A stretch of 37,705 nucleotides of DNA from a virus: positions 1-37,705 of IMG/VR virus record IMGVR_UViG_3300038451_000206. One strand, 5' to 3'. The position numbers and the translations under genes were made by a program. The notes beneath the pieces were generated by a model, which was not told the origin of the DNA, made no database searches, and was given only the letters and a program-made list of their open reading frames with translations. Shown one piece after another: positions 10,551 through 22,829 of this stretch (positions are counted from its first letter, which is position 1; every line of letters starts with the position of its first letter).

Positions 10551-11419
10551 TTGCAGGCCTTTCCCTTCTTCGGCGTTGGCTTGGTTTCGACCAGAATTCC
10601 GAAGGCCACCGCACCTTTAATCAATCTTTTGCACGTGATCTTCAGTTCGTCGGGTTCTGGTAAGCGGTGCATGATTAGACCGGCGAAAATCCGCAGGCGA
10701 ACGCTAATGCCCGAACCGGCCGTGATGCCCTCACCGGCCGTGATGCCCTCACCGGCCGTGATGCCCAAACCGGCCGTGATGCCACAACCGGCCTCGATGC
10801 CCGAACCGGCCGTGATGCCCCAACCGGCCGTGATGCCCAAACCGGCCGTGATGCCCAAACCGGCCTCGATGCCCGAACCGGCCGTGATGCCCCAACCGGC
10901 CGTGATGCCACAACCGGCCTCGATGCCCGAACCGGCCGTGATGCCCTCACCGGCCGTGATGCCCCAACCGGCCTTGATGCCCAAACCGGCCGTGATGCCA
11001 CAACCGGCCTCGATGCCCGAACCGGCCGTGATGCCCCAACCGGCCTTGATGCCCAAAACGGCCTTGATGCCCCAACCGGCCTCGATGCCCGAACCGGCCG
11101 TGATGCCCAAACCGGCCGTGATGCCCAAACCGGCCTCGATGCCCGAACCGGCCGTGATGCCACAACCGGCCTCGATGCCCGAACCGGCCGTGATGCCCAA
11201 ACCGGCCGTGATGCCCAAACCGGCCTCGATGCCCGAACCGGCCGTGATGCCCGAACCGGCCTTGGCGAAGATATAGCCGACAGCCCTCAGTGCAGCGAAA
11301 AAGACTGTCCCGAGATTGATTTCGATTTCGATGTTGCCTTCAAACGCGGTCAAATCGGTTGTGCCGATGTACTGATTTTGGGAGTCGAGTTGTTCTTTTG
11401 TGACAATGTGTGTTTTCAT
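10547..11419 (-). CDS. Hexapeptide-repeat protein (G-x-G-I-[TEK]-A)
   Basis: The 290-residue product has a non-repeat N-terminus (MKTHIVTKEQLDSQNQYIG...) of about 50 residues. Then come about 31 tandem hexapeptides of the form A-G-x-G-I-y, with x mainly S, L, W, C or E and y T, E or K, and a C-terminal cap (ISVRLRIFAGLIMHRLPEPD). Regular Gly/Ile hexads suggest a parallel beta-helix or stacked-sheet rod. I recall a bacterial/phage family with a similar N-terminus and 'IKAGGS'-type repeats. The ATGA overlap with the next gene and its position in the leftward cluster support this strand. All reading frames are open across the repeat, so other strands are not evidence of genes. Function is unknown. 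Confidence 0.7.
   Translation of the reverse strand: MKTHIVTKEQLDSQNQYIGTTDLTAFEGNIEIEINLGTVFFAALRAVGYIFAKAGSGITAGSGIEAGLGITAGLGITAGSGIEAGCGITAGSGIEAGLGITAGLGITAGSGIEAGWGIKAVLGIKAGWGITAGSGIEAGCGITAGLGIKAGWGITAGEGITAGSGIEAGCGITAGWGITAGSGIEAGLGITAGLGITAGWGITAGSGIEAGCGITAGLGITAGEGITAGEGITAGSGISVRLRIFAGLIMHRLPEPDELKITCKRLIKGAVAFGILVETKPTPKKGKACK
10707..11264. repeat. Tandem array of 31 x 18-bp repeats
   Basis: Thirty-one contiguous 18-bp units with a nearly fixed core (on the plus strand ATGCC-n3-CCGGCC-n3, written in two short parts). Only two codon positions vary, and one unit has ACGGCC instead of CCGGCC. The array lies fully inside the minus-strand hexapeptide-repeat gene and keeps its frame. 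Repeat number could change by slippage or recombination without frameshift. Confidence 0.9.
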
Positions 11420-14701: not shown

Positions 14702-15272
14702 ACTTCAGGTCGCCAGTTCGACGGCGATCGACGAAAGCCGAAAGCAACAGATCATCACCCTCGCGGCCCGCGCGATGACCAAGGCGGCGCAGACCCGCGA
14801 AAGCGCGAAGTTTTCCGTCGAAACTGCCTTGGAATGCGGCGCCCTGTTGCTGGCGGAAAAAGCCGCGATCGAAGAACGATACAAGCGGCAACGCGGATTC
14901 TGGACCGAATACTTCAACGCCCACTTCGCGAAGCACGTTTCGTTTACGACCGCTTGGCGCTGGATGAAGATGGCGAAGCTCGCCGCCGAAAAGAAGACGC
15001 CGTTTGAAAACATCCAGCGGATCGGCGTCCTGTCCCTGGGGATCATGCCGACCAAGGTCCATCCGAAGGTCCCGGGCAACCGGCCGGTCCCGCGGTTCCC
15101 ATCCCATCTGTCCTTCATCAACCGCTTCGACAGTTGGCTTCGCGCGTTCGCCCCCGCCCATCCCGGCAACGCCCTGACCGACGCGGAGCGGGCGCAACTG
15201 AAGGCGGACTTCCGGCCCGTCATCGACTTCGTCCAGACTTGGGGGCTGATCGATCCGCCGAAGCCGTCCTAA
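14676..15272 (+). CDS. DUF3102-like helical protein
   Basis: From the ATG at 14676 (AAGGGA site upstream) the product has 198 residues. ETALECGALLLAEKAAIEER followed by FWTEYFNAHFAKHVSFTTAW and RWMKMAKLAA resembles the DUF3102-type pattern, in which a helix ending in a 'W..w...' segment precedes an HTH-like 'S-x2-TAxRxM-x-LA' motif. These proteins are common in phage and plasmid regulation regions and are thought to bind DNA. The second half has a Pro-rich linker and a helical end. Overlaps the preceding gene by 26 bases. Confidence 0.55.
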   Translation: METKRPTTELQVASSTAIDESRKQQIITLAARAMTKAAQTRESAKFSVETALECGALLLAEKAAIEERYKRQRGFWTEYFNAHFAKHVSFTTAWRWMKMAKLAAEKKTPFENIQRIGVLSLGIMPTKVHPKVPGNRPVPRFPSHLSFINRFDSWLRAFAPAHPGNALTDAERAQLKADFRPVIDFVQTWGLIDPPKPS

Positions 15273-15360
15273 GATTTCATGAAATGTTAATCTGTCGGTC
15301 CTTTATTGAGTTGCAAAAGCCGCTTCCCCTTGCCAACTGTCCATCGAAACAAATTCCAGC

Positions 15361-16248
15361 ATGATAATCGATGTCCAAATGGTAGGTCATCTTCCTGCAT
15401 CGATTGGATCCTTGGAAGCATGGCGGGAAAACCCGGAAGTCTTTTTTGATCGCTTACATCGATGGGCGAATGCGCGAAGGCGCCACAATCAATCTAAAAA
15501 CTGGCAACGCTGCCATCTTTATTATCTGAAACATCGTAAAGAACTGTATGAACGCAAGCTCCGCTTTCGTCGCGAAAATCCGATCTGTGTCGCCCGGTGG
15601 AATGAAAATGCAAAAGAAAAAAGAAAAAGATCGATAGCACGATTCTTTGATCTCTTCTTTTGTAATTCCTTTCTGCTTAATGGGTGGGTTGAATGGCTGA
15701 CGGAAATTCGACGACAACAGATTGAAAATAAGAGGCGTCGTAACAGGGAATATCTTGCCAAACATCGCAAAGAACGAATCAGTTATTATCGAGAGAATCG
15801 GGAGGCGATGTTAGCCCGAAATAGGGGATATGCGCTTTCAGCCAAACGCAGGAAATGGGATTATCTCTTGCGACTTTGGTTCATCTATCCCGAAACACTA
15901 AAACGATGGATTGGTGGATTGGAAAGTTTACGGGAACGCAGCAGAATAAAAGCGCGAGCGCGGGACAAAAGAACGAGGCAAAAACATCAAGAACAGATCA
16001 GGTTAAGACAGCGTAAATGGCGGAAGAAGAACGCCCAAAGGCTTTTTATTTGGGGAAGAAAATATAGGGCAGAACATCGCGAACAAGCAGCATTGCGGAT
16101 GAGGTTATACAGGGAAAAACATCCCGACAAAAAACGGGCAGAAAATCAAAGGTATACTGCGACACAACGGCAATTCGAAATGATTGCCTCGATACGGAAG
16201 CTTCAAACGACACTTGCTCATGAAAACACAAATACAGTCAGTCAGTAA
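15361..16248 (+). CDS. Very basic repetitive protein in a low-G+C island
   Basis: The 295-residue product is extraordinarily rich in Arg and Lys. Its helical repeats of the kind Y-x3-NRE/HRK-x4-RxxxYR recur about every 20 residues (REYLAKHRKERISYYRENRE, KYRAEHREQAALRMRLYREK). Similar repeats occur next to HNH homing-type endonucleases, but no HNH or zinc motif is present. A DNA- or RNA-binding or packaging role is inferred from charge alone. The G+C is much lower than in neighbours, roughly 40-50% by eye, and codon choice differs, so it looks recently acquired. No clear ribosome-binding site. It overlaps the next gene by 29 bases. Confidence 0.6.
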   Translation: MIIDVQMVGHLPASIGSLEAWRENPEVFFDRLHRWANARRRHNQSKNWQRCHLYYLKHRKELYERKLRFRRENPICVARWNENAKEKRKRSIARFFDLFFCNSFLLNGWVEWLTEIRRQQIENKRRRNREYLAKHRKERISYYRENREAMLARNRGYALSAKRRKWDYLLRLWFIYPETLKRWIGGLESLRERSRIKARARDKRTRQKHQEQIRLRQRKWRKKNAQRLFIWGRKYRAEHREQAALRMRLYREKHPDKKRAENQRYTATQRQFEMIASIRKLQTTLAHENTNTVSQ

Positions 16249-16783
16249 AATCGTTAACGCGGCAGAACTTGCCGCTCGAATCAATCAAGTCGGCGCTGAT
16301 CTAGTCGCCATCGCAAAAGACCTGGTCGCAGCAATCGATCTAAAGGAAAGTTTCAAAGACGAACTGGCGAAACAAGGGATCAATCGCGAGTTAATCCGGA
16401 GACTTGAAAGAGTAGGTCGTGCACAGATCGACGAACGCCTGATCCTCGCAACGGGCCCCGCAGTTCGTTTGCTGATGGCATGTCCGCTCTCTGAACAAAG
16501 GAAGATCTTGACGGATGGGATCGAAGTGATGGAAGCCGATGAAAAGACTGTGCGAAAGATTCAATTCGAATCACTGACCTTTCCGCAGATTCAGCGGGTC
16601 TTCGCCCAAGGACACATACGCGACCTTGGAGAACAGCGAACTTGGATTCGAAACAACCGCAACGAAATGCCGACGCCCGAACCGGCGGACGAATATAAAG
16701 TCTTCAAGGATCATGTCGTCACTCGGAAGCCTGGGGTCTGGACGAAACAAATGATTCTTGGTTGGCTTCAGCAAATGGGTTAG
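16220..16783 (+). CDS. Hypothetical protein with 'RLERVGRxQ...LSEQRK' core
   Basis: From the ATG at 16220 the product has 187 residues. The first 45 residues are helical. INRELIRRLERVGRAQIDER and LMACPLSEQRKILTDGIEVM resemble a widespread uncharacterised phage family that has an 'LERVGR...' helix and an 'LPLSEQ...' segment, sometimes beside regulatory genes. It could be a DNA-binding protein. G+C is intermediate between the low-G+C island and the structural genes. Its 3' end is followed by a possible terminator. Confidence 0.55.
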   Translation: MKTQIQSVSKIVNAAELAARINQVGADLVAIAKDLVAAIDLKESFKDELAKQGINRELIRRLERVGRAQIDERLILATGPAVRLLMACPLSEQRKILTDGIEVMEADEKTVRKIQFESLTFPQIQRVFAQGHIRDLGEQRTWIRNNRNEMPTPEPADEYKVFKDHVVTRKPGVWTKQMILGWLQQMG

Positions 16784-16820
16784 GGGATACCGCGGCTAAG
16801 GAATCTTTTTACAATTGCGC

Positions 16821-16854
16821 GGGCCGAAGGTATCGCGAAGCCCCGTTGTTTTTT
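16821..16854 (+). terminator. Possible terminator before the packaging genes
   Basis: GGGC (16821-16824) can pair with GCCC (16840-16843), with inner CGA/TCG pairs, followed by CGTTG and six T residues (16849-16854). A larger alternative pairs GATACC (16786-16791) with GGTATC (16829-16834). The stem is short, so the call is weak. The same segment holds TTTACA (16808-16813) and TATCGC (16831-16836) 17 bases apart, a possible late promoter. Confidence 0.3.
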
Positions 16855-16892
16855 CGTGAGTCACCTTGGCGCAAATTTTACATTCAAAGATC

Positions 16893-17492
16893 ATGGCCCT
16901 TTTCGGACACAGGAAAACGATCGCCGAACTTCAGGAAGACAACCTGAACAACATTCGGGCCCGGCTGAAGGTGGGGAAGACGCTGACGAAGGCGGAACAG
17001 GCCGCACTTGAACGCGCGGAGCAACAGGCGGCGACCCCGGTCAAGGCGCGGAAGCTTCAACTGGCGCTGATGCTGAACATCAGTCGCCCGACGCTGGACG
17101 CTTACCTGACGATTCCCGGGGCGCCGACGCCGGATGATGAACGGCGTTACGACGTCGAAGCGGTCGCGGCCTGGGTCGCGAAGAATGCCCCGACCGCGGG
17201 GGCGGATCAACCGACCCAGAACTGGCGGGCGGAAAAGACCAGGATCGAAGCCGAAAACCTGGCCTTCGACCTGCAGGTCAAGCGGGGCGACTACTTCCGG
17301 AAGGCGGACGCGATCCCGGTCCTGGCTGCGCTGGTCGGGGAAGTCCAGGCGTTGCTTCGGGAAAAGTTCGAAGACGAACTTCCGCCCCGCTACGTCGGGA
17401 AGACCTGGGTCGAATGTCAGGCGATGAACCGGGAGGCGATTGACCTGATCGTCCGGCGGATCAAGGCGGGCGGGAAACCTCTGACGTCCTGA
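16893..17492 (+). CDS. Terminase small subunit (Nu1-like)
   Basis: From the ATG at 16893 the product has 199 residues. KLQLALMLNISRPTLDAYLT is a helix-turn-helix of the Nu1/terminase small-subunit kind (recognition helix SRPTLDAYL), followed by DERRYDVEAVAAWV and a long charged helix (ENLAFDLQVKRGDYFRKADA). It binds the packaging site and recruits the large subunit. It stops four bases before the large-subunit start. A TTG at 16866 gives a longer version; the ATG seems better. Position and order support the call more than sequence similarity alone. Confidence 0.75.
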   Translation: MALFGHRKTIAELQEDNLNNIRARLKVGKTLTKAEQAALERAEQQAATPVKARKLQLALMLNISRPTLDAYLTIPGAPTPDDERRYDVEAVAAWVAKNAPTAGADQPTQNWRAEKTRIEAENLAFDLQVKRGDYFRKADAIPVLAALVGEVQALLREKFEDELPPRYVGKTWVECQAMNREAIDLIVRRIKAGGKPLTS

Positions 17493-17496
17493 CGTC

Positions 17497-19338
17497 ATGA
17501 CCCAGGACCAGGAAACCTTCCTGCAGGACATTCGCGACCTGTTCGTCGAACCCGACCGGCGCCCGATCTGGCAATGGGCCGCGGAATACATCGATCTGAA
17601 GTCGACCGAAGCCTTCAAGGGCCATTATTCCGTCGAAAACACGCCCTGGACCCGGGCCTTGCTGGACGCCTTCGCGAATCCCTACGTTCGCGAAATCACC
17701 TTCATCGCCCCGCCCCAGGAATCCGGGAAGACCTTCGCTTCCCAGATCGCGGTCCTGCATCGGGCCTGCAATCAGCCCGCGAAGATGGCGTTCAACTTCC
17801 CGACGAACGTCAAGGCGGACACGTTTTCGGAAACCAAGTGGCAGCAATCGATGAACGCCTGTTCGAAGATCGGGGAACGGTTTTCGGACAACCGGCATCA
17901 GAAGAAACGGCGCCGGATCATCTTTCGGGACGGGTCTTACCTGATCATCCAGGGCGCCGAAACCGCCGGGAACCGGCAAAGCGATTCCTTCGAAGTCCAG
18001 GTGAACGACGAAGTCGCCCTGTGGGACCGGCCCTGGTTGGCCCAGATGCACAACCGCCTGCGGGCCTACCGCGAAACCCGGAAGATCATCAACATTTCGT
18101 TCGGGGGCGTGAAGGGGACCGAAATCGACGAACACTTCCGCGCGGGATCGCAGGCCGAATGGTCCCATCACTGTCCGCAATGCGGGCGCCTGTTCCAGTA
18201 TGTCTTCGACCTGAAGTCGCCGAAGTGCAACATCCGGTTCGATCTGTCGAAGGCGGTCCTGCACGCCGACGGGTCCCTGGACCTGACCGAATTCGCGAAG
18301 ACGGTCTTCGTGAACTGCCAGCATCCCCATTGCGGGTTTAAGATGGCCTGGTCGCCCGACCTGCTGGCGCGGTTGAACCAGAACGGCGAATTCGTCCCGA
18401 TGAACCCGACGGCGCCGCCGGAAATCGTTTCCTTCCATGTCAACAGCTTCGCGATCGGCCGTCGGCCCTGGTCGCAAATCCTGGAACCCTGGGTCCGGAT
18501 GAACCTGAAGGGGTCGATCTTCGCGACCGAAGTCCTGAAGGAATTCGTTCAGATGGAACTCGCGGAATTCTGGGAAGACCGGCCGATTGTCGTTTCGTCG
18601 GCCCTGAAGTTGGGGGATTACGCGCGGGGCGACATCCTGAAACCGGGCGCCTGGAAGGACGAATGGATCCGCCTGATGGCGGTCGATAATCAACGCGGGG
18701 CCCACGGCGACATCCCCCATCGCTGGTTTGTCTGCCGCGCCTTCGCCCGGGACGGCCGGACCCGCCTGGTCGATTGCGGCCGCGTGAACGAATGGGAAGA
18801 CATCCGGACGAAGCAACGCGAACTGGGCGTCCCGGACTGGACCCCGGAACGGCCGGGGCCCTGGGTCGTCGTCGATCGCGCCTACGACCCGACGACGGTC
18901 GACGAAGTATGCGCGAAGTTCAAATGGTTCGGGATGTTGGGTCAGCCGACCGACGAATTCCTGCACGGTCCCCGGTCGCCGTATGCCGGTCAGCGAATGC
19001 TTTTCACGGAACCGCGGGCGATCGACATCGGCTTCGGGACGCCGGAAGCGGGCCGCGACTTCGCCGTCTACTACCTCTGGTCATCGGAGAAGGTCCAGGA
19101 TTTGCTGGCGGCGCTGCGGGACAACCCGGAACAGTTCGCCCTTCCGTCCGACCTGATGAATTTCGCCCCCGAGTACGCGGATCATATCAACTCGCACCGG
19201 CAGACGATGAAGATGCAGCCGACGGGACAGGAAAAGTTGACCTGGGTGAAGATCGGCGGTTGGCCCGATCACCTTTACGATTGCGAATCGATGCTGGTCG
19301 TCCTGGGCCTGATGGCGGGCGTCTTCCGAAGGGAATGA
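17497..19338 (+). CDS. Terminase large subunit (lambda GpA family)
   Basis: The 613-residue product cuts and pumps phage DNA into proheads. It has an adenine-binding N-terminus (GHYSVENTPW), Walker A variant APPQESGKT (71-79) and Walker B-like VNDEVALWD (169-177). A zinc-binding pair follows, CPQC (226-229) and CQHPHC (274-279). The nuclease domain has D397 in LMAVDNQRG and D460 in VVVDRAYD. Layout and length match GpA-type terminases (lambda gpA, 641 residues). The stop at 19336-19338 is followed within one base by the ATG of a truncated sulfotransferase-like gene. Confidence 0.92.
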   Translation: MTQDQETFLQDIRDLFVEPDRRPIWQWAAEYIDLKSTEAFKGHYSVENTPWTRALLDAFANPYVREITFIAPPQESGKTFASQIAVLHRACNQPAKMAFNFPTNVKADTFSETKWQQSMNACSKIGERFSDNRHQKKRRRIIFRDGSYLIIQGAETAGNRQSDSFEVQVNDEVALWDRPWLAQMHNRLRAYRETRKIINISFGGVKGTEIDEHFRAGSQAEWSHHCPQCGRLFQYVFDLKSPKCNIRFDLSKAVLHADGSLDLTEFAKTVFVNCQHPHCGFKMAWSPDLLARLNQNGEFVPMNPTAPPEIVSFHVNSFAIGRRPWSQILEPWVRMNLKGSIFATEVLKEFVQMELAEFWEDRPIVVSSALKLGDYARGDILKPGAWKDEWIRLMAVDNQRGAHGDIPHRWFVCRAFARDGRTRLVDCGRVNEWEDIRTKQRELGVPDWTPERPGPWVVVDRAYDPTTVDEVCAKFKWFGMLGQPTDEFLHGPRSPYAGQRMLFTEPRAIDIGFGTPEAGRDFAVYYLWSSEKVQDLLAALRDNPEQFALPSDLMNFAPEYADHINSHRQTMKMQPTGQEKLTWVKIGGWPDHLYDCESMLVVLGLMAGVFRRE

Positions 19339-19339
19339 C

Positions 19340-19417
19340 ATGATCATTCAACCGCTTCTGTGCGTCAGCTTCCCGCGGTCCGGCGCCTGTTTGCTGGAAG
19401 AATCTCGCAGTTTATGA
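19340..19417 (+). pseudogene. Truncated sulfotransferase-like N-terminus
   Basis: An ORF of 25 codons starts one base after the terminase stop. It reads MIIQPLLCVSFPRSGACLL before changing style. SFPRSG is the phosphosulfate-binding (5'-PSB) loop signature of PAPS-dependent sulfotransferases at the expected distance from the N-terminus. After about codon 19 the sequence changes to codons that fit another frame (an HTH gene), and this frame stops at 19417. So the gene appears cut by an insertion or rearrangement near 19395. The identification rests on a short motif only. Confidence 0.45.
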
Positions 19418-19767
19418 CGCGCTGACCGAGATCGCGTCCGACGAAGAGAGCGAGACATTCGCAACGACGCACGCCTGGATTCAACGGATGAGCGGAGTTT
19501 CGACGAGGAGCATCCAGCGGATTCTGCCGATTCTGTCCGAACTTGGTCTTGTCGGCATCTCGACGCCAAGGATGCGCGGTCCGTCGACGTACACCTTGCC
19601 CCCGTTCGGCCATGATGGCGTAACGTTCGGCCATGGTGACGGAACGTTCCGCCATGGTGCAAAACAGGCTTCGTGGCGGACATCAGAAGAATCTCAGAAG
19701 AAAGGTTCTGAAGAATCTCCAGAACAAGCCTCGCAAAGAACTCCTACGATCGCGGTCATTCCCTGAA
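19396..19767 (+). pseudogene. 5'-truncated HTH protein fragment (HTH_36-like)
   Basis: In the frame ending at 19767 the sequence reads KNLAVYDALTEIASDEESET and then AWIQRMSGVSTRSIQRILPI with SELGLVGIS. This is a winged-helix HTH (recognition helix STRSIQRILPILSELGL) as in HTH_36-type replication/regulatory proteins. No usable start precedes it; the frame runs back into the sulfotransferase-like start with unrelated residues, so its true beginning is missing. The C-terminal half is low-complexity with three short repeats and a Ser/Glu/Gln-rich tail. Its stop overlaps the end of the convergent gene by 12 bases. Base and codon use differ from the phage genes. Confidence 0.6.
19605..19662 (+). 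repeat. Three imperfect 21-bp tandem repeats
   Basis: Units beginning TTCGGCCATGATGG, TTCGGCCATGGTGA and TTCCGCCATGGTGC follow one another, encoding FGHDGVT, FGHGDGT and FRHGAKQ in the HTH fragment. Units two and three are close copies; unit three is degraded at its end. Confidence 0.55.
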
Positions 19768-20184
19768 GACACTGTTGGCCTTCATCTCCGGGAATGCCTT
19801 GTAGATCGAGGAGACTAGCTGTGCGAAGCCCAGGTCGCGCACGAATTTGGCAAGCTGCGAGATGTAGCCGGAAACCTCCGGCTTCTGAGCTGCGAGAATC
19901 GCTTTGCCTTTCTCTCTGCCTGCCGCCGTAAGCCCGTAGCCGCGGTACTTCGACGCAGGACTCGTGTTGATCACCACCAAGGCCTCGTCGCGCAGCTTGT
20001 AAAGTGACTGATAAATCGATTCGTCAAAGGGGCCGTAGTCGTAGGGGCGAAATTTGAAATGCGGACCGCCCGTCATAGACGCGGCCTTTTTGTCCAGCAG
20101 GAACATCGTCTTCTGGATTTGTACCGGGGAAAATTCCCCGTCGGCCGAAGCCAGGGTCGCAAGCAATAATTCCTCTCGGGTCAT
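19756..20184 (-). CDS. YwgA/DUF4065-like protein
   Basis: From the ATG at 20184 the product has 142 residues. LLLATLASADGEFSPVQIQK followed by TMFLLDKK, FKFRPYDYGPFDESIYQSLY and YGLTAAGREKGKAI follow the layout of the Panacea/DUF4065 and YwgA-like families. These have an N-terminal 'xxLQKxxFLLD' helix, a 'YxxGPF' segment and a C-terminal winged-helix-like 'LTxxG'. Members of the wider Panacea group are often antitoxins or proteolysis adaptors, some phage- or plasmid-borne. It is the only complete gene in the foreign-looking 1-kb insertion and is opposite to the phage genes. No toxin partner is seen. Confidence 0.65.
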   Translation of the reverse strand: MTREELLLATLASADGEFSPVQIQKTMFLLDKKAASMTGGPHFKFRPYDYGPFDESIYQSLYKLRDEALVVINTSPASKYRGYGLTAAGREKGKAILAAQKPEVSGYISQLAKFVRDLGFAQLVSSIYKAFPEMKANSVFRE

Positions 20185-20234
20185 ACGACCCAAACTACGC
20201 AAACGCTATAGGCAACGCAAGCACAGGTTCCGTC

Positions 20235-20269
20235 AAAAACCCCCGCCCCTGGCGAACCAGAGACGGGGG
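20235..20269 (-). terminator. Minus-strand terminator with UUCG loop
   Basis: Read on the minus strand, 13 paired positions (CCCCCGTCTCTGG with CCAGGGGCGGGGG, wobble pairs included) close a TTCG tetraloop and are followed by five T residues (plus-strand A5 at 20235-20239). This is a strong rho-independent terminator for leftward transcription. It lies just upstream of the YwgA-like gene, so it probably ended a gene formerly to its right. It is absent from the phage context. Confidence 0.75.
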
Positions 20270-20347
20270 CACCTTCGCCCGTGACCGTGAAACGCCCTCC
20301 AAGGGTTCGAAATGCTGAGATTGCCTGCGGATTTTGGGCGATCCTTT

Positions 20348-20412
20348 TCACTGGCTGACCTTCGAGGGCAAATCGGTTCCGCGGTAACGCACGCGGACGT
20401 ATTTGAGGCCGT
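20348..20412 (-). pseudogene. Possible 3' end of a truncated leftward gene
   Basis: A minus-strand frame ends at a TGA (20348-20350) with NGLKYVRVRYRGTDLPSKVS just before it. The codons look natural, and the UUCG terminator follows about 80 bases downstream, as expected behind a gene. Rightward it meets phage sequence with no start. The call is speculative and depends on only about 20 codons. Confidence 0.2.
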
Positions 20413-20438
20413 TTGTTTGTGGTAATGGTGGAAGCGTT

Positions 20439-20672
20439 ATGACTTCCATCGATCAAATCCCGGTCCGGCCCGAAACCTTCCGGCTGCCGACGAAAGGCGT
20501 CGATCCGCACTTCGGTTTCAGTCGTCCTTGGTACTACGCAGCCGAAGCCCGCGGCTGCTTCAAACTAATCAGGATCCGCGACCGGGGCAAGAAAAGGGGC
20601 GTCGTTTTGGTCCCCTATGCCGACGTCCTGGCCTTCATCAAGCAACAGTCCCAAACCGGCGCCGTCGCGTGA
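20439..20672 (+). CDS. Small excisionase-like DNA-binding protein
   Basis: From the ATG at 20439 the product has 77 residues. FRLPTKGVDPHFGFSRPWYY, then KLIRIRDRGKKRGVVLVPYA and DVLAFIKQQ follow the small winged-helix pattern of excisionase- or AlpA-like proteins. The GFSRPWYY part is the recognition helix and the basic RDRGKKRG hairpin is the wing. It is the first recognisably phage gene after the insertion, and its stop overlaps a GTG start of the next ORF (GTGA at 20669-20672). A transcriptional or late-control role is inferred. Confidence 0.6.
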   Translation: MTSIDQIPVRPETFRLPTKGVDPHFGFSRPWYYAAEARGCFKLIRIRDRGKKRGVVLVPYADVLAFIKQQSQTGAVA

Positions 20673-20978
20673 ATCCGGCCGTCCCTGAAATTGGGTTCGA
20701 AAACGGCAAGCCCGTGCGCCTTTTTTGGCCGGAGCAATTCCGGCCGCGGGAGCAACTGTCTGCCGGCACCGTCCGCGCGGCTGAAATCAGGATGATTGCG
20801 CTCAGGTTTCTTTGCGGGCTGGAACCGCAGTCGATGGCCGACGTCGCTCGGCAACGTGGCGTCTCGAGGAATGCCATCAGTGCGGTCCTGGCGTCATACC
20901 TGGCGCTTTTTCTGTTCCGAAGACTTCCGCCAATTCGCGAAAAGTTTCGATCCGCCCGTTTACGATGCTTCCCCATGA
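20669..20978 (+). pseudogene. HTH regulator with +1 frameshift
   Basis: From the GTG at 20669 the frame reads VNPAVPEIGFENGKPVRLFW and a clear HTH, MADVARQRGVSRNAISAVLA. After ASYLALF the frame becomes rich in rare codons (CGA, AGA, TTA). Moving one base forward at the T5 run (20907-20911) gives phage-like codons, EDFRQFAKSFDPPVYDASP, and a TGA that overlaps the next ATG as ATGA, the junction type used throughout this phage. So the gene has a one-base insertion in a homopolymer (mutation, sequencing error or programmed shift). Without a shift it fuses in frame to the glycosyltransferase gene. Confidence 0.55.
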
Positions 20979-22492
20979 AAAGAAATCCGAAAACCTTTGT
21001 CGAACTGGGTCGCGCGGGCGACATCCTGAATGTCCTTCCCCTGGTCAAGCGGGAATTCGAACGGCATGGGATCCGGCCGCGCGTCATGATCGCGGCGCCT
21101 TACGCGGAGTTGTTCCAGGGGATCACCTACGCGGAACCCCTCGTTTGGCCGGGGATGTTCGAAGACATCAAGGCGGCGATCTGGACCGCGAAGCAGCTTC
21201 CGGGCGAAGTCATCATCCCGCAGATTTACGGTCACGAATGGAACGTGCCCCGGCTTTGCACTTCGTTCCTTCGCGAGTCCTGGCGTTGCGCCCGGGCGGA
21301 CGTTCCCTGGGGATCGCTGCCCTTGGAATTTGACCGGCGCAACCGTCGCCAGGAAAACCGGATCGTCCGCGAGCTCGCCGGATCGACGGCGAAGCCGATC
21401 GTCCTGCTGGCGGCGCAAGGCTATTCATCGCCCTTCGGCGGGGCGGACTATTGCCTGAAAGCCCTGTTGACCCTGAACCTGGGCCGCGGGTTCAAGGTCA
21501 TCAACCTGACGAACTACCGGGCGCCCCGCATGTTCGACCTGTTGGGACTGTTCGAACGGGCGCATTGCCTGGTCACGATCGACACCGGGATCAAACACCT
21601 GGCGCGGGCCTGCCGGGTCCCCGTCATCAGCCTGAACGGGCGGGTCCCGACGAAATGGCACGCTTCATCCTGGCACCCGAACGACGTCGGCCGGTTCTTT
21701 TATGACGAATTCCCGACCTGTTCGCGCGACATCGTCGAAGCGATCCGTCACGCCGAAGACGCGGGCTTCGGCCCGAAGATCATTCACACCTGGGCCGACT
21801 TCCGGTCGGAGTTGCCGGACGACAACACGGCCCGCCGGATGAAGCTGGCGCGGGCTTCCTGGGAAATCGAATACGCGACCGGCCGATGGAAGTCCCGGCG
21901 GTTCTTCCAGTCGGTCGCCGATCGCGATTCCCGCATGGTCGGCGATTCGCGGCCGGTCCCCTTCGTCCATGATCTGATCGATCACGCGATCAGGGCCGCG
22001 CGGAGGCCGTCGGACATCATCGCCCTGACGAACGCCGACGTCGGTTTCACGCCCGGCCTGACCGGTTGGGTCCTCGAGGCGATCCCCCGGCATGGCGCCG
22101 CCTTTACCCATCGATGGGACTTCGACCGCCTGGACCGGCCCTGCGTGTCCGAAGCCGAAGTCATGACGCGCGGGAAATGGTATTCGGGAAGCGACGCCTT
22201 CTTCTTTTCGGTCAAATGGTGGAAGGAACACGGCGCCGAATTCCCCGACATGATCCTGGGCCGCGAACATTGGGACGAAGTCTTCCGCCAGTTGATCAAG
22301 CGGTATCAGGGTTCCGAAATTTGCGGGGCGATCTACCACGAAAAGCATGATTCGTTTTGGCAGCAGCCCGAAGAAAAGACGGGCAACCCGGCCAACTGGC
22401 ACAACCGGAACCTGTTGAAGGCCTGGTTCGCCCGGACGGGTTATCGGATGATGGACGGCGACTGGTGGAAGGTTCCGCCGGGGAATTTCTGA
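20975..22492 (+). CDS. Putative two-domain glycosyltransferase
   Basis: The 505-residue product has an N-terminal GT9-like (heptosyltransferase-type) domain. It has FVELGRAGDILNVLPLVKRE (8-27) and FERAHCLVTIDTGIKHLARA (193-212), the latter like the donor-site 'TxDTGxxHLA' motif. A second region (about 320-480) resembles a GT-A-type sugar transferase with TNADV (352-356) and YSGSDAFFF (403-411). It probably transfers sugar from a nucleotide donor; acceptor unknown (host surface, virion or DNA base). It lies between the terminase and head genes, an unusual place. The ATG at 20975 is chosen because it overlaps the TGA of the frame-corrected HTH gene; an unshifted reading would start at 20669. 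Confidence 0.6.
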   Translation: MKRNPKTFVELGRAGDILNVLPLVKREFERHGIRPRVMIAAPYAELFQGITYAEPLVWPGMFEDIKAAIWTAKQLPGEVIIPQIYGHEWNVPRLCTSFLRESWRCARADVPWGSLPLEFDRRNRRQENRIVRELAGSTAKPIVLLAAQGYSSPFGGADYCLKALLTLNLGRGFKVINLTNYRAPRMFDLLGLFERAHCLVTIDTGIKHLARACRVPVISLNGRVPTKWHASSWHPNDVGRFFYDEFPTCSRDIVEAIRHAEDAGFGPKIIHTWADFRSELPDDNTARRMKLARASWEIEYATGRWKSRRFFQSVADRDSRMVGDSRPVPFVHDLIDHAIRAARRPSDIIALTNADVGFTPGLTGWVLEAIPRHGAAFTHRWDFDRLDRPCVSEAEVMTRGKWYSGSDAFFFSVKWWKEHGAEFPDMILGREHWDEVFRQLIKRYQGSEICGAIYHEKHDSFWQQPEEKTGNPANWHNRNLLKAWFARTGYRMMDGDWWKVPPGNF

Positions 22493-22532: not shown

Positions 22533-22829
22533 ATGATGGCAAATCCCGTCCTAGACTTCGGCGCCTTCACGACGGCGGAAAAGACCGACCTTCTGAAACA
22601 GGTCAAAGCGGAATACGTCAAACGGCTGACCGGACGGGTTTCGCAAGGGTCGTCCGCGGCGCAAAGCTACGGGTTGAACCTGATGGAAGTCGGCGACCTG
22701 ATCCGCCTGATCAACGGCCTGACGATGGACCTGGGTCTTCAGACCGTCGAAGTCCGCGCGGCCCCGAACTTCAACCAGGGCCCGAAGACCGGTCCCTATC
22801 AACCGTCAAACCCCCTGGGCTTTCCATGA
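22533..22829 (+). CDS. Head-tail connector (gpW-like)
   Basis: A 98-residue product directly before the portal gene, as lambda gpW is. The pattern FGAFTTAEKTDLLKQVKAEY followed by KRLTGRVSQGSSAAQSYGLN fits the small helical gpW-like connector family, which closes the portal after packaging. Two ATG codons occur in tandem (22533 and 22536); either may be used. The stop overlaps the portal start (ATGA). Length and position match, but sequence similarity is weak. Confidence 0.65.
   Translation: MMANPVLDFGAFTTAEKTDLLKQVKAEYVKRLTGRVSQGSSAAQSYGLNLMEVGDLIRLINGLTMDLGLQTVEVRAAPNFNQGPKTGPYQPSNPLGFP

Follow-up and report, generated by a model that had tools for sequence, protein, structure and literature searches.

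A foreign-looking fragment with broken edge genes between the terminase and glycosyltransferase genes of a phage

Between the terminase and head genes of a phage known from an IMG/VR virus record of 37,705 bases (the whole of this record was analysed and is called the window below) lies a stretch of DNA that looks unlike its surroundings, and we asked whether it is real, where it ends and how it may have come there. The gap between the terminase large subunit (TerL) gene and the GT9-like glycosyltransferase (GT) gene in the window is 1636 nt; downstream of the latter lie a small gene at 22533 and then the portal gene at 22826. The features of the locus are as follows.

17497–19338, plus strand: terminase large subunit TerL (GpA type), left phage flank (PF05876 GpA_ATPase, 7.7e-23; phrog_15, 2.4e-45)
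19340–19394, plus strand: interrupted beginning of a possible sulfotransferase gene (MIIQPLLCVSFPRSGACLL); about 19 codons with phage-like codon use
19395–19766, plus strand: winged-HTH-like ORF, 5′-truncated, at the left end of the foreign stretch (best matches weak: Replic_Relax 0.041, TrmB 0.27)
19756–20202, minus strand, likely ATG at 20184: intact, solo YwgA/Panacea-like gene, DarG C-terminal-like (PDC-M19A, DarG and phrog_14939 matches)
20228–20275, minus strand: intrinsic terminator with UUCG loop (14 bp stem, fold −28.8 kcal/mol, z −4.4; also found in the scan)
20439–20672, plus strand: 77-aa ORF (ribosome site GGAAG 4 nt upstream; codon z −2.2)
20669–20974, plus strand: 102-aa HTH ORF, right end of the foreign stretch (MarR_2 0.013, Sigma70_r4 0.021, both below cut-off)
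20975–22492, plus strand, ATG at 20975: GT9/heptosyltransferase-like glycosyltransferase, right phage flank (PF01075 2.1e-4, just below cut-off; TIGR02193 1.4e-4)

The 5′-truncated HTH gene, the complete leftward YwgA/DUF4065-like gene (ORF 20202–19756) and the strong minus-strand UUCG terminator described in the first-pass annotation were all confirmed, whereas its possible end of another leftward gene was not supported, a 33-codon frame being all that is present. As for the sulfotransferase-like start that it saw cut after about 19 codons, the frame is present and contains SFPRSG, which we take to be a plausible sulfotransferase motif, but the identity is weak, as the fragment had no Pfam or other profile match and no tblastn match in phages (a low-power search with a query of only 21–25 residues). 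The 77-aa ORF resembles, by eye, small excisionase-type DNA-binding proteins, and no relative of it was found outside the same phage. Its stop is overlapped by the GTG start of the following HTH ORF (GTGA), which in turn runs in frame and stopless into the glycosyltransferase ATG.

An abrupt change of composition and strand together with broken genes is what an artificial joining of phage and bacterial sequence during assembly would leave, and this had been one of the options offered for the locus. The insert was, however, found without any difference in two other assemblies. IMGVR_UViG_3300038418_000518 (L003) showed 0 differences over window 16829–20885, thus taking in the left junction and the greater part of the insert (its match ends about 90 nt short of the insert's right edge). 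IMGVR_UViG_3300039412_000145 (L002) matched from 16829 onward and spanned both junctions; it showed 3 differences over 15,584 nt compared, 0 of them in the insert. L002 and L003 are separate metagenome assemblies, perhaps from one project, so that their independence is incomplete; given both, we regard an assembly chimera as very unlikely indeed. Both records begin at exactly window 16829, just before the terminase small subunit gene, and this shared start could mark either a physical end of the genome or a point where strain variation made the assembly branch.

The foreign stretch is about 1.58 kb long with one broken gene at either end: the left HTH ORF has no start and the right HTH ORF has no stop. 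DNA similarity to the closest relative, L004, ends at 19331 and is back at 20973. Since similarity resumes there, and since the ORF at 20669–20974 has atypical codons and is fused to the glycosyltransferase ATG, the right edge is placed near 20973 (about 20967–20974) and not at 20438. The earlier proposal of about 1 kb of foreign DNA at 19380–20438 was mostly right, with a right boundary set about 535 nt too early. For the left edge, any position within roughly 19340–19395 would fit, depending on the reality of the sulfotransferase-like stretch.

Codon use was scored as z against a codon model of the phage's late genes, and length-matched late-gene stretches served as comparison (5th percentiles −3.2 to −3.8, minima −5.3 to −6.1). 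Three of the four insert ORFs fell far outside these stretches: codon z was −8.9 for the truncated HTH ORF (19395–19766; 5th percentile matched by length −3.2), −8.0 for the YwgA-like ORF (−3.8) and −6.9 for the 102-aa HTH ORF (20669–20974). With the leftward orientation of the YwgA-like ORF, these values bear out the claim that codon use and strand of the insert are unlike the phage. The 77-aa ORF, at −2.2, is nearly phage-like and not clearly foreign, and values of −0.4 and −0.9 were obtained for the 19 sulfotransferase-like codons and the first 100 glycosyltransferase codons, respectively. Because some early genes of the same phage are also atypical (z to about −8), codon use alone is no proof of a cellular source.

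The nearly phage-like score of the 77-aa ORF, and the switch of gene direction after the terminator, would suit a mosaic made in two steps, in which only 19395–20438 is foreign and the pair at 20439–20974 came separately, from another phage or from the phage's own lineage. The HTH ORF coupled to the 77-aa ORF is nevertheless atypical and fused to the glycosyltransferase start, and neither ORF was present in any relative examined, so we hold two separate arrivals to be rather unlikely.

Two further stretches of the window stood out. Just upstream of the terminase small subunit gene, window 15235–16797 is also atypical, with codon z of −22.6 for ORF 15361–16248, in a region where GC drops to 41–47%, and −13.5 for ORF 16184–16783; its counterpart in L004 (7822–8549) is a different, HNH-like ORF. 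At window 10707–11250, a leftward ORF contains a short-unit tandem repeat whose copies, ATGCCCGAACCGGCCG and variants of it, lie at multiples of 18 nt from one another.

Searches with terminase and portal yielded six distinct relatives with about 60–79% terminase identity, in which the GT9-like protein is 61% identical (L004) or 41–47% identical (L018, L019, L026 and L027). The first-pass annotation had proposed looking for an empty site, and three relatives have one: 3, 4 and 12 nt separate the TerL stop from the glycosyltransferase gene in L026, L027 and L019, respectively. In L004 the gap is 715 nt and corresponds to a GT17 gene (PF04724, 9.1e-20); in L018 and its close match L020 it is 1021 nt, occupied by an ORF that looks HNH-like by eye and by a GT17 relative; and in L017 a different ORF follows TerL, with no GT gene. 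The distant phage P8625 (24% TerL identity) has an endonuclease VII-like gene after TerL. Since the interval is empty or differently filled in relatives, it is a recurrent and lineage-specific cargo site of the phage group at the terminase/head boundary, and adjacent TerL and GT genes would be the simplest ancestral state for the group. Extra DNA was also seen in L027 (3928–5421) between the glycosyltransferase gene and the small pre-portal gene, which suggests that this gene cluster has a second place for cargo.

The idea of a cargo ('moron') locus thus gained support from relatives that show an empty site or other cargo. Like a phage moron, the insert is extra DNA that separates two conserved late genes and is missing from relatives or has a different counterpart there, and its codon use is atypical against the flanks. 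A classic moron is a whole gene that carries a promoter and a terminator of its own. Here, by contrast, the genes at both edges are broken; the search for a sigma-70-like promoter came up empty, and the strong minus-strand terminator sits upstream of the YwgA-like gene and not after it.

As to the source of the fragment, the collections searched (genome contigs, plasmids and phages) yielded no close cellular relative of the insert. The proposed search of the HTH and YwgA-like proteins for bacterial kin brought up nothing in one genome-contig scan each, scans that detect close relatives only. The only notable YwgA-like relative in the plasmid and phage collections was a distant one (27.8% identity), encoded by a plasmid of the archaeon Salinirubellus. 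No donor sequence was found, and the case for a foreign origin is built on codon use, on the truncated genes and on the lack of the stretch in relatives. As for the illegitimate transfer of host or plasmid DNA proposed earlier, the transfer is supported by the broken gene at either edge, and a host or plasmid is a candidate source.

The earlier remark that neither a transposase nor a terminal repeat was obvious agrees with our searches, in which no insert ORF matched a transposase and none of the window's six 16-nt inverted word pairs lay at the insert ends (this word length does not cover shorter or imperfect repeats). A transposon or insertion sequence was rejected, there being no transposase and no long inverted ends. 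The 7-nt word GCTTCCC is common to both edges (at 19368 and 20967), a match equalled by 11% of random pairs; a target-site duplication was rejected on this ground, and the word would suit a microhomology junction, yet is not beyond chance.

The one clearly intact gene of the insert encodes a YwgA-like protein (142–148 aa) whose profile matches suggest kinship with the DarG C-terminal antitoxin domain and the candidate-defence family PDC-M19A. Among PADLOC models it matched the N-terminal part of PDC-M19A (1.7e-11, model positions 3–125), only the C-terminal region of DarG (6.8e-7, model positions 161–273) and a type I specificity model; phrog_14939 was matched at 2.7e-6. Similarity to the Panacea/SocA (DUF4065) antitoxins was weak and below all curated cut-offs (Pfam PF13274, E 0.17, 13.3 against 25.7 bits; NCBIfam NF047745, E 0.031, score 14 against 190), and the score with the DarG model NF048014 was likewise below its cut-off (19.8 against 250). 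Unlike DarG, the protein has no macrodomain or NADAR domain and stands alone; unlike a DarTG system, the locus has no recognised DarT gene, as none of the neighbouring ORFs tested against PADLOC matched the toxin, and no other toxin gene and no macrodomain were recognised beside it, so that the toxin partner of Panacea antitoxins is missing too.

Such a gene could have been kept for its own sake, as an orphan antitoxin or anti-defence protein that would, for example, occlude a DarT-type toxin of the host, the rest of the fragment being passenger DNA. Consistent with this, the YwgA-like protein is whole, unlike the products of the two edge genes, and its matches fall on DarG positions 161–273 and PDC-M19A positions 3–125. 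There is also precedent: AdfB of ICP1 is a phage-encoded antitoxin against DarT (PMC11481870), and Panacea antitoxins neutralise many toxins (PMC8832971). Against it, no consensus sigma-70-like promoter was found for the gene, the gene opposes the late operon, and the related domain occurs in other contexts too, as the type I specificity match indicates. The three copies of the gene do not differ and so give no measure of selection, and the AlphaFold model (pLDDT 40) was unusable, being too poor for a fold search. On balance, we consider retention by selection improbable; the gene may be expressed and of use, for instance as an orphan antitoxin, or it may not. A still more specific version remains a long shot: soon after transfer from a host defence locus, the stand-alone protein would block a toxin-based host defence, DarT-like or other, through the occlusion known for DarG. 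PMC11481870 states, with reference to Deep et al. 2023, that the C-terminal domain of DarG stops DarT by filling the site where DarT takes up DNA.

We consider it probable that the cargo site was filled or overwritten in the window's lineage by a fragment of about 1.58 kb from another genome, via illegitimate recombination. The donor might be a bacterium, a plasmid or an unrelated mobile element. A single capture event would have brought the foreign fragment to the tolerant TerL/GT site and left a gene severed at either end, and these broken genes speak for unguided capture. The fragment probably displaced most of a sulfotransferase-like cargo gene. As the only strong terminator acts on the minus strand, late rightward transcription can probably read through to the head genes, and the insert is probably tolerated.

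The cargo-locus and illegitimate-transfer readings, both supported, thus fit together, and the insert is a real foreign-looking fragment and a good example of the known, ordinary gene mosaicism of phages. The one thing that could make it more notable is antitoxin activity of the solo YwgA-like protein; the locus would then record an antitoxin domain entering a phage minus its toxin. As it stands, the locus offers a snapshot of phage cargo-site turnover, in which the site is empty, holds glycosyltransferase- or HNH-type genes or, as here, holds a raw foreign fragment with its edge genes still broken.
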